Assembly (NCBI RefSeq): GCF_005080865.1
Contig: NZ_CP034861.1
Location: 434,001 to 498,000 of the forward strand
Source: Buchnera aphidicola (Muscaphis stroyani)
GTDB lineage: Bacteria; Pseudomonadota; Gammaproteobacteria; Enterobacterales; Enterobacteriaceae
DNA length: 64,000 nt
Direction of reading: 5' to 3'
The notes beneath the pieces were generated by a model. That model worked only from the letters and a program-made list of their open reading frames with translations, did not search any database and was not told where the DNA came from. This document shows positions 26,375 to 58,726 of this stretch, one piece after another (within the stretch, counting starts at the first letter, position 1; each line of letters starts with the position of its first letter). Position numbers and translations under genes: made by a program.

Positions 26375-27473
26375 ATGTTAGAAACAAATACAATTAAAAA
26401 TCAAATTAATACTTTTATTAAAAAATTAACAGATATAAAGAGGTATCTTTGACTACAAAGAAAAAATAACACGTATTTCAGAAATCAATTTAGAATTGTT
26501 ATTGCCTGAAACATGGAAAATCCAAAAAAATGTAAAAAAACTTAATAAAGAAAAAACAAAATTAAATACAACAATTAAAAAAATTAATACAATAGAGAAA
26601 CAGATAAAAGAAGTAACCATTTTTTTAGAATTAGCAATCGAAACAAAAGATTCTATAATTTTAAAAGAAATTATTAAAGAACTTGAAAACATAAAAAAAA
26701 AAATAAAAACAATTGAATTTTATCGAATGTTTTCAAAAAAATACGATCATTACAATTGTTATATTGACATACAATCAGGTTCAGGAGGGATAGAAGCTCA
26801 AGATTGGTCTAAAATGCTTCTTAGAATGTATATTAAATGGGCTGATAAAAAAGGTTTAAAAACAGAAATTATTAATGAGTCATTTGGAGAAATAACTGGG
26901 ATTAAGTCTGCTACAATTAAAATTTCTGGTGAATATGCATTTGGATGGTTAAGAACTGAAACAGGAGTTCATCGCTTAATTAGGAAAAGTCCTTTTAATG
27001 CAGGGAATAGACGTCATACTTCTTTTAGTTCTACTTTTATATATCCAGAAATAAAAAATAAAATTAATGTTAACATTCGTCTTTCAGATCTCAGAATAGA
27101 TGTTTATAGAGCTTCCGGAGCTGGAGGTCAACATGTAAATAGAACAGAATCTGCTGTTCGTATTACGCACCTTCCTACTGGTATTGTTACTCAATGCCAA
27201 AATAATCGATCTCAACATAAAAATAAAGAACAAGCCATGAAACAAATGCAATTAAAATTGCACAATATACAAATAAAAATAAAAGAATTAGAAGAAAAAA
27301 AAATAGAAAAAAATAAATCAGATATTACTTGGGGTAATCAAATACGTTCGTATATATTAGATAATTCAAAAATTAAAGATCTTCGAACTGGTATTGAAAA
27401 AAATGATGTCCAATCCGTATTAAATGGAGATTTAGATGATTTTATTGAACAAAGTTTAAAAATGGGATTATAA
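26375..27473 (+). CDS. prfB: Peptide chain release factor 2, programmed +1 frameshift
   Basis: Terminates translation at UGA and UAA. A 25-codon leader frame starts at ATG 26375 and stops at UGA 26450-26452; translation continues in the +1 frame from 26451. The joined product is 365 residues, the same as E. coli RF2. The junction reads as KRYLDYKEK, collinear with the E. coli RGYLDYDAK. Conserved features include the RF2 codon-recognition SPF tripeptide (RKSPFNAG) and the GGQ peptidyl-hydrolysis motif in [17 protein letters not shown]. It is followed 10 bases later by lysS, as in E. coli. A translation from a single frame would miss the N terminus. Confidence 0.96.
26438..26453 (+). promoter_or_regulatory. 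prfB +1 recoding site
   Basis: The sequence AAGAGGTATCTTTGAC holds the slippery CUU codon, the in-frame UGA with a following C (a poor termination context), and an upstream AGAGG that can pair with the 16S rRNA anti-Shine-Dalgarno region. The spacing equals that of E. coli (AGGGGGTATCTTTGAC), but the Shine-Dalgarno-like stretch is weaker. By established knowledge, low RF2 favours the shift, so RF2 regulates itself. Confidence 0.93.
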
Positions 27474-54781: not shown

Positions 54782-55258
54782 ATGAATACAATTAATTCAG
54801 GAATCACAGTAAAAAACTCTTCTATTGCTATTATAATTTCCAGATTTAATGAATTTATTAATAAAAATTTGTTATTAGGAGCGCTGGACACGCTAATTCG
54901 ACTAGGTAAGATGAAAGAAGAAGAAATCTTGAAAATATACGTTCCAGGAACAAATGAAATACCAGTAGTTGCAAGTTATATTGCAAAATCTCAAAAATAT
55001 CATGCTATAATTGCAATAGGAACTATCATAAAAGGAAATACAGATCATTTTAAATATATATCAAATAATACTTTCAGTAATCTTTCAAAAATTAGTACAA
55101 AATATTTTATACCCATCACATTAGGAATATTGATTACAGACAACATAAAACAATCTATTGAAAGATCTGGAACAAAAATGGGAAATAAAGGATCTGAAGC
55201 AGCTTTAGCTGCATTAGAAATGATCAACACTATGAAATATGTTAAAAATAGATTTTAA
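54782..55258 (+). CDS. ribH: 6,7-dimethyl-8-ribityllumazine synthase
   Basis: Condenses the RibD product with dihydroxybutanone phosphate to lumazine, the penultimate step of riboflavin synthesis; often named ribE in E. coli. The 158-residue protein (E. coli 156) has SRFNEFINKNLL for substrate binding, VPGTNEIPV, AIGTIIKGNTDHFKYI with the catalytic histidine, and GNKGSEAALAALEM. It is followed by ribD and nusB, so the block is the enteric ribD-ribH-nusB cluster in altered order. Confidence 0.97.
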   Translation: MNTINSGITVKNSSIAIIISRFNEFINKNLLLGALDTLIRLGKMKEEEILKIYVPGTNEIPVVASYIAKSQKYHAIIAIGTIIKGNTDHFKYISNNTFSNLSKISTKYFIPITLGILITDNIKQSIERSGTKMGNKGSEAALAALEMINTMKYVKNRF

Positions 55259-55332: not shown

Positions 55333-55776
55333 ATGAAAGATGAATTTTATATGAACAGAGCAATTAAAATTAGTAAACTAGGCCAATTTACGACGTCACC
55401 CAATCCTAATGTAGGATGCGTTATTGTTAAAAATGATAATATTATAGGAGAAGGATGGCATAATCAGTTTGGAGAAAATCATGCCGAAATAAACGCTCTG
55501 AAAATAGCTGGAAAAAAATCTAAAGGAGCAACTGCTTACTTAACTCTTGAACCTTGTAGCCATTTTGGGAAAACACCTCCTTGCTGTGTTGCACTTTTTC
55601 AATCTGGTATAAAACACGTTATTATTGCAAATATAGATCCTAATCCAAAAGTTTCTGGTAAAGGAATTTCGTACTTGACTAAAAAAGGTGTTTTAGTTAA
55701 AACAGGAGTACTGTCTCAAGAATCTAAAAAATGTAATAATGGATTTTTTAAACGAATGCATACAGGACTCCCATGA
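55333..55776 (+). CDS. ribD: RibD deaminase half (diaminohydroxyphosphoribosylaminopyrimidine deaminase)
   Basis: Deaminase domain of bifunctional RibD in riboflavin synthesis. In 147 residues it has the zinc and catalytic motif HAEINALK and the cysteine motif LEPCSHFGKTPPCC, with TSPNPNVGCVIV near the N terminus. It ends at a TGA at 55774-55776 after RMHTGLP. The reductase half continues in the same frame after that single stop; many RibD proteins have Trp at this place (RTG-PW-RLKLA pattern). If the UGA were read as an amino acid, the product would be 367 residues, the length of E. coli RibD. I recall published Buchnera annotations that list ribD1 and ribD2 separately, so the split may be old. 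Confidence 0.9.
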   Translation: MKDEFYMNRAIKISKLGQFTTSPNPNVGCVIVKNDNIIGEGWHNQFGENHAEINALKIAGKKSKGATAYLTLEPCSHFGKTPPCCVALFQSGIKHVIIANIDPNPKVSGKGISYLTKKGVLVKTGVLSQESKKCNNGFFKRMHTGLP

Positions 55777-55794
55777 GCTCGGCTTAAATTAGCT

Positions 55795-56436
55795 ATGTCA
55801 ATAGATGGTAGAATAGCTTTAAAAAATGGTGAAAGCAAATGGATTACTTCTTTATTCTCAAGAAAAGATGTACAAATTTTCCGAGCAAAAAGCTCTGTAA
55901 TTCTTAGTAGTAGCTCAACTATATTAAGAGATGATCCATTTTTAAACGTACGTTATAATTTATTTAACAAAAAAATGCTGTCTACATTCCCTAAAAAAAT
56001 ATTTAAACATCCAATACGAGTTATTATAGACAGTAAAAATCAAATTACTCCATTTCATAAAATTATTAACACTAAAGGAGAAATATGGTTAATAAGAATC
56101 AAACCAGATAATCAATTATGGCCTAAAAATGTCACACAAAAAATATTAAAACCATATAAAAATAAAATTAATCTTGTATCTTTATTTAAATTATTGGGAA
56201 AATTGGAAATTAATAATATATGGATAGAAGCTGGTAGCACTTTGTCTGGATCTTTACTAAAACTAAAATTAATAGATGAAATTATTATATACATCGCTCC
56301 TAAAATACTTGGTCATGAAGCAAAACCACTCTTTATTCTTCCAGATAAATCGAATTTAATTAAATGTATTCCATTTAATTTTCACAATATTTGTCAAATA
56401 GGTCCAGATATAAGATTAACACTTATACGTCAATAA
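55795..56436 (+). CDS. ribD: RibD reductase half (5-amino-6-(5-phosphoribosylamino)uracil reductase)
   Basis: NADPH-dependent reductase domain of RibD, of dihydrofolate-reductase-like fold. It has [53 protein letters not shown] and a C terminus PDIRLTLIR like E. coli. The first ATG is 55795, only 18 bases after and in frame with the UGA that ends the deaminase half. Starting there omits the RLKLA residues that form the first beta strand of the domain, so a separate protein would lack part of its core. This argues for readthrough, or for loss of function, unless translation starts at a non-standard codon upstream. Confidence 0.88.
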
Positions 56437-56471: not shown

Positions 56472-56885
56472 ATGAAACCATCCTTTCGAAGAAAAGCACG
56501 TGCATGTGCTTTGCAAATGTTATACTCTTGGGAAATATCAAAAAATGAAATTAAAAATAGCGCTGTTCAATTTTTAAAAGAAAAAAATAAAAAAAATATT
56601 GATATTCCATATTTTTATGAATTAATTGTTGGAATAACTTTTGATTGTGAAAACATAGATAACTTAATGCAACCTTACCTCTCTAGAACATTAAAAGAGT
56701 TGGGTCAAATTGAAAAAGCAATTCTTAGAATATCATTCTATGAAATGTACAAAAGAACAGATATACCTTACAAAGTATCAATTAATGAAGGAATTGAATT
56801 AGCAAAATTATTTGGATCTGAAGACAGTCATAAATTTATTAATGGAGTTTTAGACAAAGCTGCATTAAAAATTAAATTAAAATAA
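56472..56885 (+). CDS. nusB: Transcription antitermination factor NusB
   Basis: RNA-binding protein that joins NusE (S10) at boxA for ribosomal RNA antitermination. The 137-residue protein (E. coli 139) has [16 protein letters not shown] at the N terminus, the [10 protein letters not shown] helix, [17 protein letters not shown] and a [10 protein letters not shown]-terminal helix. It follows ribD, as the enteric rib-nusB cluster does, and converges on dxs with about 30 bases between the stops. Confidence 0.97.
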
Positions 56886-56915: not shown

Positions 56916-58702
56916 TTAAAATTTATGTAACCAAGAAGATATTTGTTTTTCAATACCTTTAGAATCTAATTGATAATCACGTAGAATTTCTTCTTGAGTG
57001 CCTTGAGGAATAAACAAATCAGGTAATCCAATGTTTAAAACTGGGATTAAAATTTTTTTTAACATTATAAATTCATTTACAGAACTTCCAGCTCCTCCTG
57101 ATATTACTCCTTCTTCAAGAGTAACAAAATATTTATGCGTACGTGATAACTTAATAAGTATATTTTTATCTAAAGGCTTCACGAAACGCATATCAACTAA
57201 AGTAGTGTTTAAATTTTCTGCTACGCAAAAAGCATTTTTTAACAAAACTCCAAAATTTAAAATAGCGATTTCAACTCCAATTCTTTTTACAATAGACTGT
57301 CCAAGAGGGATAACACGCATTGGAGTTAAAAAAGATCCAATTCCACAACCTTTTGGGTATCTTACTGCACTCGGTCCTTTTTTATGCATATAACCAGTAT
57401 AAAGCATTTGTCTCAATTCATTTTCGTTACTTGGCGTCATAAGCACAATTCCTGGGATACACCTTAAATAACATAAATCAAAAATGCCTTGATGTGTTTC
57501 GCCATCATTTCCAACGACACCACTTCTATCAATGGCAAATAAAACAGATAATTTTTGAAGTGCTATATCATGTATTAATTGATCATAAGCACGTTGTAAA
57601 AATGTGGAATAAATAGAAACAACCGGTTTATAACCTCCAATTGATAAACCAGCAGCAAAAGTAACTGCATGTTGCTCGGAAATAGCAACATCAAAATATT
57701 GATTAGGGAAAAGACGTGAAAATTGTACCATTCCTGAACCTTCGCACATAGCAGGTGTAATAGCAATTAATTTTTTATCAAATTGAGCCGTTTCACATAA
57801 CCATGCACCAAATACATCTGAATAGCTCATAGAGTTTGATTTTAAAACATCATCCTGAGGAACTGTATGCCATTTTACAGGATCTAATTCTGCCGGTAAA
57901 TGACCCTTTCCTTTTTTAGTTAAAAGATGTAAAAAATAAACTCCTTGTTTATTTTTAATATTTTTAAGGATTTTAATAATAGATAAAATATCATGACCAT
58001 CAAATGGACCTAAATATTTAAAACCTAAACTTTGAAAGATAGAATTGAAACAACAATTTTTTTTTTTAATTTAATAGGATGAGAACTATTTTTTTTATTA
58101 TTTTTTAAAACATTTAAATGGTTTTGTAAAGCACCTACATTTTTAGAAATAGACATTTCATTATCATTTAATATTACCAGTAAATTAGACTGAACATGCC
58201 CTGCATGGTTCATAGCTTCAAACGCCATTCCGGCAGTCATTGCTCCATCTCCAATAACGCAAATAGTTCTTCTATTTCTTCCTTCTTTTTGAGATGCAAT
58301 AGATAGTCCCAAACCAGCGCTAATAGAAGTAGAAGAATGACCAACACTTAAAACATCATAAATGCTTTCTGCTCTACAAGGAAATGAATGTAATCCATTT
58401 TTTTTTCTAATACTCTGAATTTGGTGCATTCTTCCAGTAAGTATTTTATGAGGATATGCCTGATGACCTGTATCCCATAATAAATTATCAAAGGGAGTAT
58501 TATAAATATAGTGTAATGCTACTGTAATTTCAATTACTCCTAATCCAGAAGCTACATGACCTTTAGGGGAATACGATGCATCTAATAAGTATTCACGTAA
58601 TTCCATGCACAATTTAGACAATTGTTTAGTAGACAATAATCGTAAATTTTTTACTGAATTAGCAAACGACAAAATAGGGTATTTTTTAAAATTAAAGCTC
58701 AT
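56916..58702 (-). pseudogene. dxs: 1-deoxy-D-xylulose-5-phosphate synthase, split by a poly(A) frameshift
   Basis: Dxs condenses pyruvate and glyceraldehyde 3-phosphate with thiamine diphosphate, the first MEP-pathway step. The N-terminal frame (start 58702 by alignment; 58714 also possible) has [42 protein letters not shown] and NDNEMSIS, and stops at 58025-58027. The C-terminal frame is open from about 58056, before any ATG, with [18 protein letters not shown], then [17 protein letters not shown] and PSAVRYP, and ends at 56916. The junction is a run of 11 A at 58057-58067; one added A joins both into 595 residues (E. coli 620). A loop of about 20 residues is shortened there. Apparent start ATG 57830 is internal. 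Function depends on slippage or correction of the sequence. Confidence 0.87.
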
Positions 58703-58726
58703 TAAAATGCTCATTTTTTAAATTTG

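Follow-up and report, generated by a model that had tools for sequence, protein, structure and literature searches.

A Conserved In-Frame UGA Codon in Buchnera ribD and Its Probable Readthrough as Tryptophan

The ribD Locus

The window analyzed here, a 64,000-nt stretch of the 630 kb genome of Buchnera aphidicola (Muscaphis stroyani), contains ribD on the forward strand at positions 55333–56436. The gene is flanked by the genes for the riboflavin enzyme lumazine synthase (54782–55258; TIGR00114 above cut-off) and nusB (56472–56885; TIGR01951 above cut-off), both also on the forward strand. Translation of the window bears out the original prediction that ribD is one frame with a single interruption: the sole internal stop is a TGA at 55774–55776, in the context GLP-stop-ARLKLA. 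The 147 codons that precede it and the TGA itself (55333–55776) constitute the deaminase half (NCBIfam TIGR00326/NF008052, Pfam PF00383), and the 219 codons beyond it (55777–56436), which are in the same frame and are followed by TAA, encode the reductase domain (Pfam PF01872 and TIGR00227, above cut-off). In separate searches against the RibD profile NF008052, the N-terminal half matches positions 1–147 and the C-terminal half positions 150–365 of 367. When the TGA is read as an amino acid the product has 367 residues, as had been predicted, which is exactly the length of the NF008052 model; the zinc deaminase and RibD_C reductase domains share one frame only given UGA readthrough.

The TGA is preceded by the Pro codon CCA, and in sister comparison this codon–stop pair (55771–55776) is invariant in all 36 genomes of the genus. 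The six codons that follow (55777–55794; ARLKLA) extend from the stop to the first ATG and specify Lys152 and most of the first β strand of the reductase domain. The ATG at 55795–55797 had been described as the only one downstream; it is indeed the first in-frame ATG past the stop, but others follow it, and ATG is present at this position in only 30 of the 36 genomes. Buchnera ribD is presumably annotated as two genes, ribD1 and ribD2.

Conservation of the Internal TGA

The genus was sampled with 36 genomes, namely that of the window and 35 sisters, and each of them contains one match to the reductase half. In all 36, the N-terminal half is exactly 147 codons long and ends in TGA, and the reductase half follows in frame with no indels at the junction. 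None of the 35 sisters has a second stop in ribD, and identity to the halves in the window is 68–76% for the N-terminal half and 61–70% for the C-terminal half. Conservation of a stop codon at the same site, a mark of programmed readthrough, is thus complete (36/36 TGA), and the in-frame TGA is confirmed as real and far beyond chance. Divergent junctions or extra stops in sister strains would have spoken against the readthrough originally predicted; instead, all 35 sisters retain the TGA and the frame, and the comparison supports that interpretation.

Among named relatives, a contig of Buchnera aphidicola (Pemphigus obesinymphae) ranks best, at 57%. In other genera, 354 of 392 genomes matched, and among the matches listed the ribD frame is unbroken over at least 343 codons. 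The nearest intact genera (loci L098–L102 and L108) have TGG, specifying Trp, at the homologous codon, and L111, another small-genome relative, has Phe. When 84 sequences were placed at this site, two TGA-bearing members of the genus included, 18 had Trp, 33 Tyr, and 27 Phe; alignment gives Tyr for Escherichia coli RibD. The earlier statement that many RibD proteins have Trp here needs correcting in that Tyr and Phe are commoner. Because TGG occupies the site in the nearest intact genera, the change from TGG to TGA most likely took place on the stem of the genus. As judged from these sequences, the ancestral TGG had most likely been replaced by the time of the last ancestor shared by the 36 genomes, and the TGA and the frame appear to have been kept since.

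Comparison with Other Stop Codons

Stop codons were compared over an orthologous 60 kb, about a tenth of the genome, in the 35 sisters and five outgroups. Of 46 ORFs with at least 34 orthologs, seven (o4, o33, o34, o37, o38, o47, o56) were dropped, leaving 38 controls besides the target ribD. ORF o4 was removed by an overlap rule. The others stood on a hand-made list of ORFs lying antisense to larger genes, apart from o34; this ORF of 71 codons was dropped without an antisense reason. Three dropped ORFs are rich in TGA (o47, 36/36; o56, 35/36; o4, 16/36); they were read as antisense ORFs within conserved genes, which coordinate overlap supports. The control set is less than ideal: the stop of the ribD C-terminal half itself and two pieces of dxs belong to it, and 30 of the 38 controls have their stop at more than two positions across genomes.

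Among 1347 control stops in these 38 ORFs, TAA occurs 1118 times, TAG 139 times, and TGA 90 times, and the highest TGA count in any kept control is 15 of 36. In a three-state stop-codon model on the tree, the probability of TGA in 36/36 genomes, given TGA at the root, is 2.4e-20 with rates from all controls and 1.9e-41 with rates from the eight same-site controls, in which the stop takes no more than two positions; when the rates are lowered tenfold, the values are 0.008 and 9e-6, respectively. The ribD TGA is therefore unlike a plain end-of-gene stop. The lack of reversion to TGG was considered as proof of selection and rejected as uninformative: 12–24% of conserved Lys, Glu, and Gln sites are likewise without any G-ending codon, so its absence in 36 genomes says little.

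Internal stops were also screened, with outgroup ORFs of at least 80 aa as queries against the 60 kb stretches (matched: 42/45 for G310 and 48/49 for G237). Among the matches listed, the ribD TGA is the only internal stop common to all matching genomes (36/36). The other rows listed are ORFs of 86–257 aa, most of which are interrupted at more than one position, with no single stop shared by more than 31 of 36 genomes; the short ORFs among them are probably antisense.

Coding Selection and Start Codons Downstream of the Stop

Selection was gauged by offset from the stop, without alignment, in the 36 genomes. Codons +1 to +6 give a pN/pS of 0.19, against 0.25 for the N-terminal half, and mostly encode I-Q-L-K-L-A across the genus; in-frame coding selection directly past the stop, as looked for in readthrough, is indicated by this ratio. 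Codons +7 to +60 give 0.27 and codons +7 to +200 give 0.42; the value is inflated in the C-terminal half because indels lie further in and the offset comparison is unaligned. In aligned pairs picked by hand, the ratio of C-terminal to N-terminal pN is 0.81–1.74 in eight ingroup pairs and 1.09–1.58 in four intact outgroup pairs. By this sequence comparison, the reductase half is under purifying selection as in the intact outgroup, with no sign of relaxation.

Lys152, which is important for substrate recognition in bacterial RibD/RibG according to the available text of PMC3631187, is Lys in 36/36 genomes and lies upstream of the ATG at 55795. In an AlphaFold2 model of the read-through chain (mean pLDDT 84.3), residues 148–156 are predicted to form one strand. 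The original prediction held that a start at this ATG would cost the first β strand of the domain; in the model, most of strand 148–156 would be removed.

Codon +7 is ATG in 30 genomes, ATA in four, ATT in one, and GTT in one, and the first ATG, GTG, or TTG stands at +7 in 30 genomes, +15 in four, +34 in one, and +97 in one, so that no start of these kinds explains the downstream frame across the 36 genomes. ATA or ATT at codon +1 was rejected as a start since 7/36 genomes have ACN or GCT there. The marks of a two-gene split, a conserved second start and a stop free to vary, were not found in the genus. Given the selected codons before the ATG, the position of Lys152, the strand, and the missing ATG, an independent start of the reductase is unlikely, and independent starts at ATG +7 or at the overlapping ATGA were rejected from the 36-genome tables.

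Nucleotide Context of the TGA

The codon before TGA is CCA in 36/36 genomes; of the 199 conserved Pro sites in 39 ORFs, no other keeps a single codon throughout. An invariant third base occurs in only 2 of 959 conserved four-fold sites, and CCA (5203) is used about as often as CCT (5592). With a z of -3.5 for synonymous conservation, this CCA is the only codon near the stop that stands out at the nucleotide level. Windows of 12 codons show no strong trough of synonymous conservation; the lowest combined z, about -1.8, lies far from the stop. No stem-loop that might act as an RNA stimulator was found between -33 and +123: the consensus fold of 36 sequences reaches -0.86 kcal/mol with four pairs, none of them changed on both sides. 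The ATGA overlap, a 3′ structure, and a distant CCAU–AUGG pairing were tried as reasons for the invariance of CCA, and none was convincing. A speculative idea of our own is that CCA might be kept as the Pro codon least prone to +1 slippage in the pause.

In the available text of PMC11126739, no stop of E. coli leaks more than UGA, the residue inserted at it is mainly Trp, and termination error is raised by Pro or Gly at -1 or -2. In the reporters described there, the base preceding the stop had no effect, and the CCA invariance is unexplained on that basis. As for the base after the stop, T lowers and G raises readthrough; A, which follows TGA in 35/36 genomes, is not singled out in that text (PMC11126739). 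The window itself has G.

Decoding Machinery

The gene prfB for RF2, which terminates translation at UGA, counted from its CTTTGAC frameshift-like site on, occupies 26447–27473 on the forward strand (TIGR00020 above cut-off), and RF2 is above cut-off in all 36 genomes. The frameshift motif (AAGAGGTATCTTTGAC, 26447–26453 in the window) is likewise present in 36/36 genomes of the genus. An RF2-like frameshift motif was found in two of the five outgroups, one of them with UAA, and was not found in outgroups G310, G237, and G212. At the prfB start of outgroup G321 (L239–L241), the sequence is CTTTAAT, with UAA in place of the usual UGA of the frameshift site.

Of 48 genomes, 47 yielded a tRNA-Trp gene, and its anticodon is CCA in every case; in G029, none was found in the stretch searched. 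A24 in tRNA-Trp is the change of the Hirsh UGA suppressor. Inspection of tRNA-Trp, a check proposed with the original prediction, gave G24 in all 35 ingroup genes read, that is, no known suppressor change in 35/36 genomes, and a suppressor tRNA-Trp was rejected as the cause. Two observations were made on these genes in their own right. The tRNA-Trp of outgroup genus g110 (L286, L287, and L288, from G144, G250, and G321) has A rather than G at position 24, and the g110 ribD copies examined have TGG. Many tRNA-Trp genes of the genus (L277 and others of L242–L288) and that of outgroup G256 have a U50–U64 mismatch in the T stem; those of G024 and G013 have a T–A pair at 50–64.

The Sec-synthesis gene selA, the one Sec gene searched for, was found in 0/36 genomes by a search that finds it in E. 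coli, and selenocysteine decoding of the ribD UGA was rejected for want of selA. At 120 Trp sites in 39 ORFs of the 60 kb, a stop replaces TGG seven times (three TGA, four TAG), in three ORFs of three genomes. Neither mark of a table 4 code, loss of RF2 or general use of UGA for Trp (the latter sampled over the 60 kb), was seen. With RF2 kept and UGA stops elsewhere, UGA is a normal stop in this genus, and ribD needs leakage through it.

Interpretation and Alternatives

On the evolutionary pattern, we consider it very probable that the ribD UGA is read through, most likely as Trp, and that the reductase needs this readthrough; from the same pattern we infer the product, its amount, and the inserted residue. 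Most ribosomes would stop at the UGA and release a free 147-residue deaminase, and some would accept the near-cognate tRNA-Trp(CCA) there and produce the 367-residue bifunctional RibD, the only source of reductase that was found; the "low-level" rate of the original prediction is a guess. Leakiness of UGA and more error-prone termination following Pro, which is ancestral at this position, would probably assist. Selection would keep out TAA and TAG, since neither is read as Trp and either would cost the reductase.

A true gene split, in which the deaminase ends at the UGA and the reductase starts at the ATG at 55795 or by near reinitiation, was the alternative offered with the original prediction, and we regard it as improbable. 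Codon +7 is ATG in most genomes (30/36), Pfam still recognizes a chain begun there, and the ribD1/ribD2 annotation, as we take it to be, would fit; yet such a start loses Lys152 and most of strand 148–156, is absent from 6/36 genomes (two of which have no ATG, GTG, or TTG until +34 and +97), and lies downstream of codons that are themselves selected in frame. In a split gene, moreover, the TGA would be free to turn into TAA, and neither TAA nor TAG has replaced it in any genome. Reinitiation might instead be coupled to termination, at the ATG with which the stop overlaps (CC-ATG-A). This would account for the invariance of both CCA and TGA, and this ATG exists in 36/36 genomes by virtue of the CCA TGA; it opens another frame, however, whose peptide ends after 4 codons in 25 genomes and 12–45 codons in 11 and is unconserved, and the reductase would then need a frameshift, for which no conserved site was seen. 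We therefore give this route very little credence.

Genome-wide reassignment of UGA to Trp, which is known from other tiny insect symbionts, is highly unlikely here given RF2 in every genome, the 90 TGA codons among 1347 control stops, and the mere seven stops for TGG at 120 Trp sites (three of them TGA); selenocysteine, taken together with it at the same low probability, is opposed by the absence of selA. That the reductase is dead or the TGA a sequencing error is scarcely credible. Reduced genomes do hold broken genes, and dxs in the window is frameshifted, but the identical codon recurs in 36 separate genomes, the reductase half is under purifying selection like that of the intact outgroup, and each genome has one reductase match and no second stop.

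Relation to Known Systems and Implications

Readthrough of the ribD UGA may be compared with several systems. Symbiont RibD shares with bifunctional RibD (TIGR00326/NF008052; E. coli RibD, 2G6V) its domain order, the length of 367 when read through, and Lys152; it differs from E. coli RibD in that the frame is cut by UGA at residue 148, where E. coli has Tyr. In phage Q-beta, a leaky UGA in the coat gene is read by ordinary tRNA-Trp, resulting in a minor extended protein; the product there is a phage structural protein, whereas ribD is a chromosomal gene for an enzyme, and its codon at the site was ancestrally one for Trp. UGA has been reassigned to Trp in Hodgkinia and similar symbionts. Both cases would involve UGA as Trp in an insect symbiont, but here RF2 is kept and UGA still serves as a stop elsewhere. 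What ribD shares with selenocysteine and pyrrolysine recoding is that a conserved gene contains an in-frame stop that would be decoded as sense; unlike those systems, ribD is accompanied by neither selA nor a conserved fold, and its homologs have mainly Trp, Tyr, or Phe, and no Cys, at the site. The prfB +1 frameshift has a Shine-Dalgarno-like stimulator. Frameshifting at CUU UGA C in prfB and readthrough in ribD would both depend on slow termination at an internal UGA (PMC5009743, in its available text), but RF2 synthesis changes frame, whereas translation of ribD would remain in its frame, and the search for a stimulator there found none.

Selenocysteine and pyrrolysine apart, conserved readthrough has, to our knowledge, hardly been reported in bacterial chromosomal genes. 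In one screen, 191 prokaryotic genomes yielded 21 clusters, of which 15 were known selenoproteins, four known pyrrolysine proteins, and two unknown, and the main text, as far as available, is without mention of Buchnera or ribD (PMC1914089). No paper on readthrough of Buchnera ribD was found in a search of mostly open-access literature.

A broader proposal, which we put forward tentatively and hold to be somewhat doubtful, is that the whole genus has depended on this readthrough since its common ancestor, its ordinary ribosomes misreading the UGA as Trp with no more context than CCA-UGA, while RF2 and normal UGA stops are kept. If this were true, the ratio of deaminase to reductase would be set by the levels of RF2 and charged tRNA-Trp, riboflavin output could be coupled to the tryptophan state and to RF2 autoregulation, and ribD would represent a living "ambiguous" stage of a UGA-to-Trp code change that is limited to one codon. 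With ribD, one can test how a cell copes with a stop codon of ambiguous meaning and what level of readthrough a needed enzyme requires, and the case bears on the onset of UGA-to-Trp code changes in insect symbionts. It also raises the question of whether other "split" genes in symbiont annotations are actually read through.

Other Observations

The PDB entry 8dq9, labeled 3-dehydroquinate dehydratase I, matches RibD over nearly its full length (E 8e-122), and this label therefore looks wrong.

In the window, dxs (56916–58714, reverse strand) lies in two frames, which match TIGR00204 positions 3–204 and 311–615, and the break falls within or close to a poly(A) run around 58056–58066. Slippage rescue at poly(A) runs is known from Buchnera work. 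The dxs break may be either a case of such rescue or a homopolymer assembly error; dxs is in one frame of at least 580 codons in at least 15 of the 36 genomes, as resolved with the motif used.
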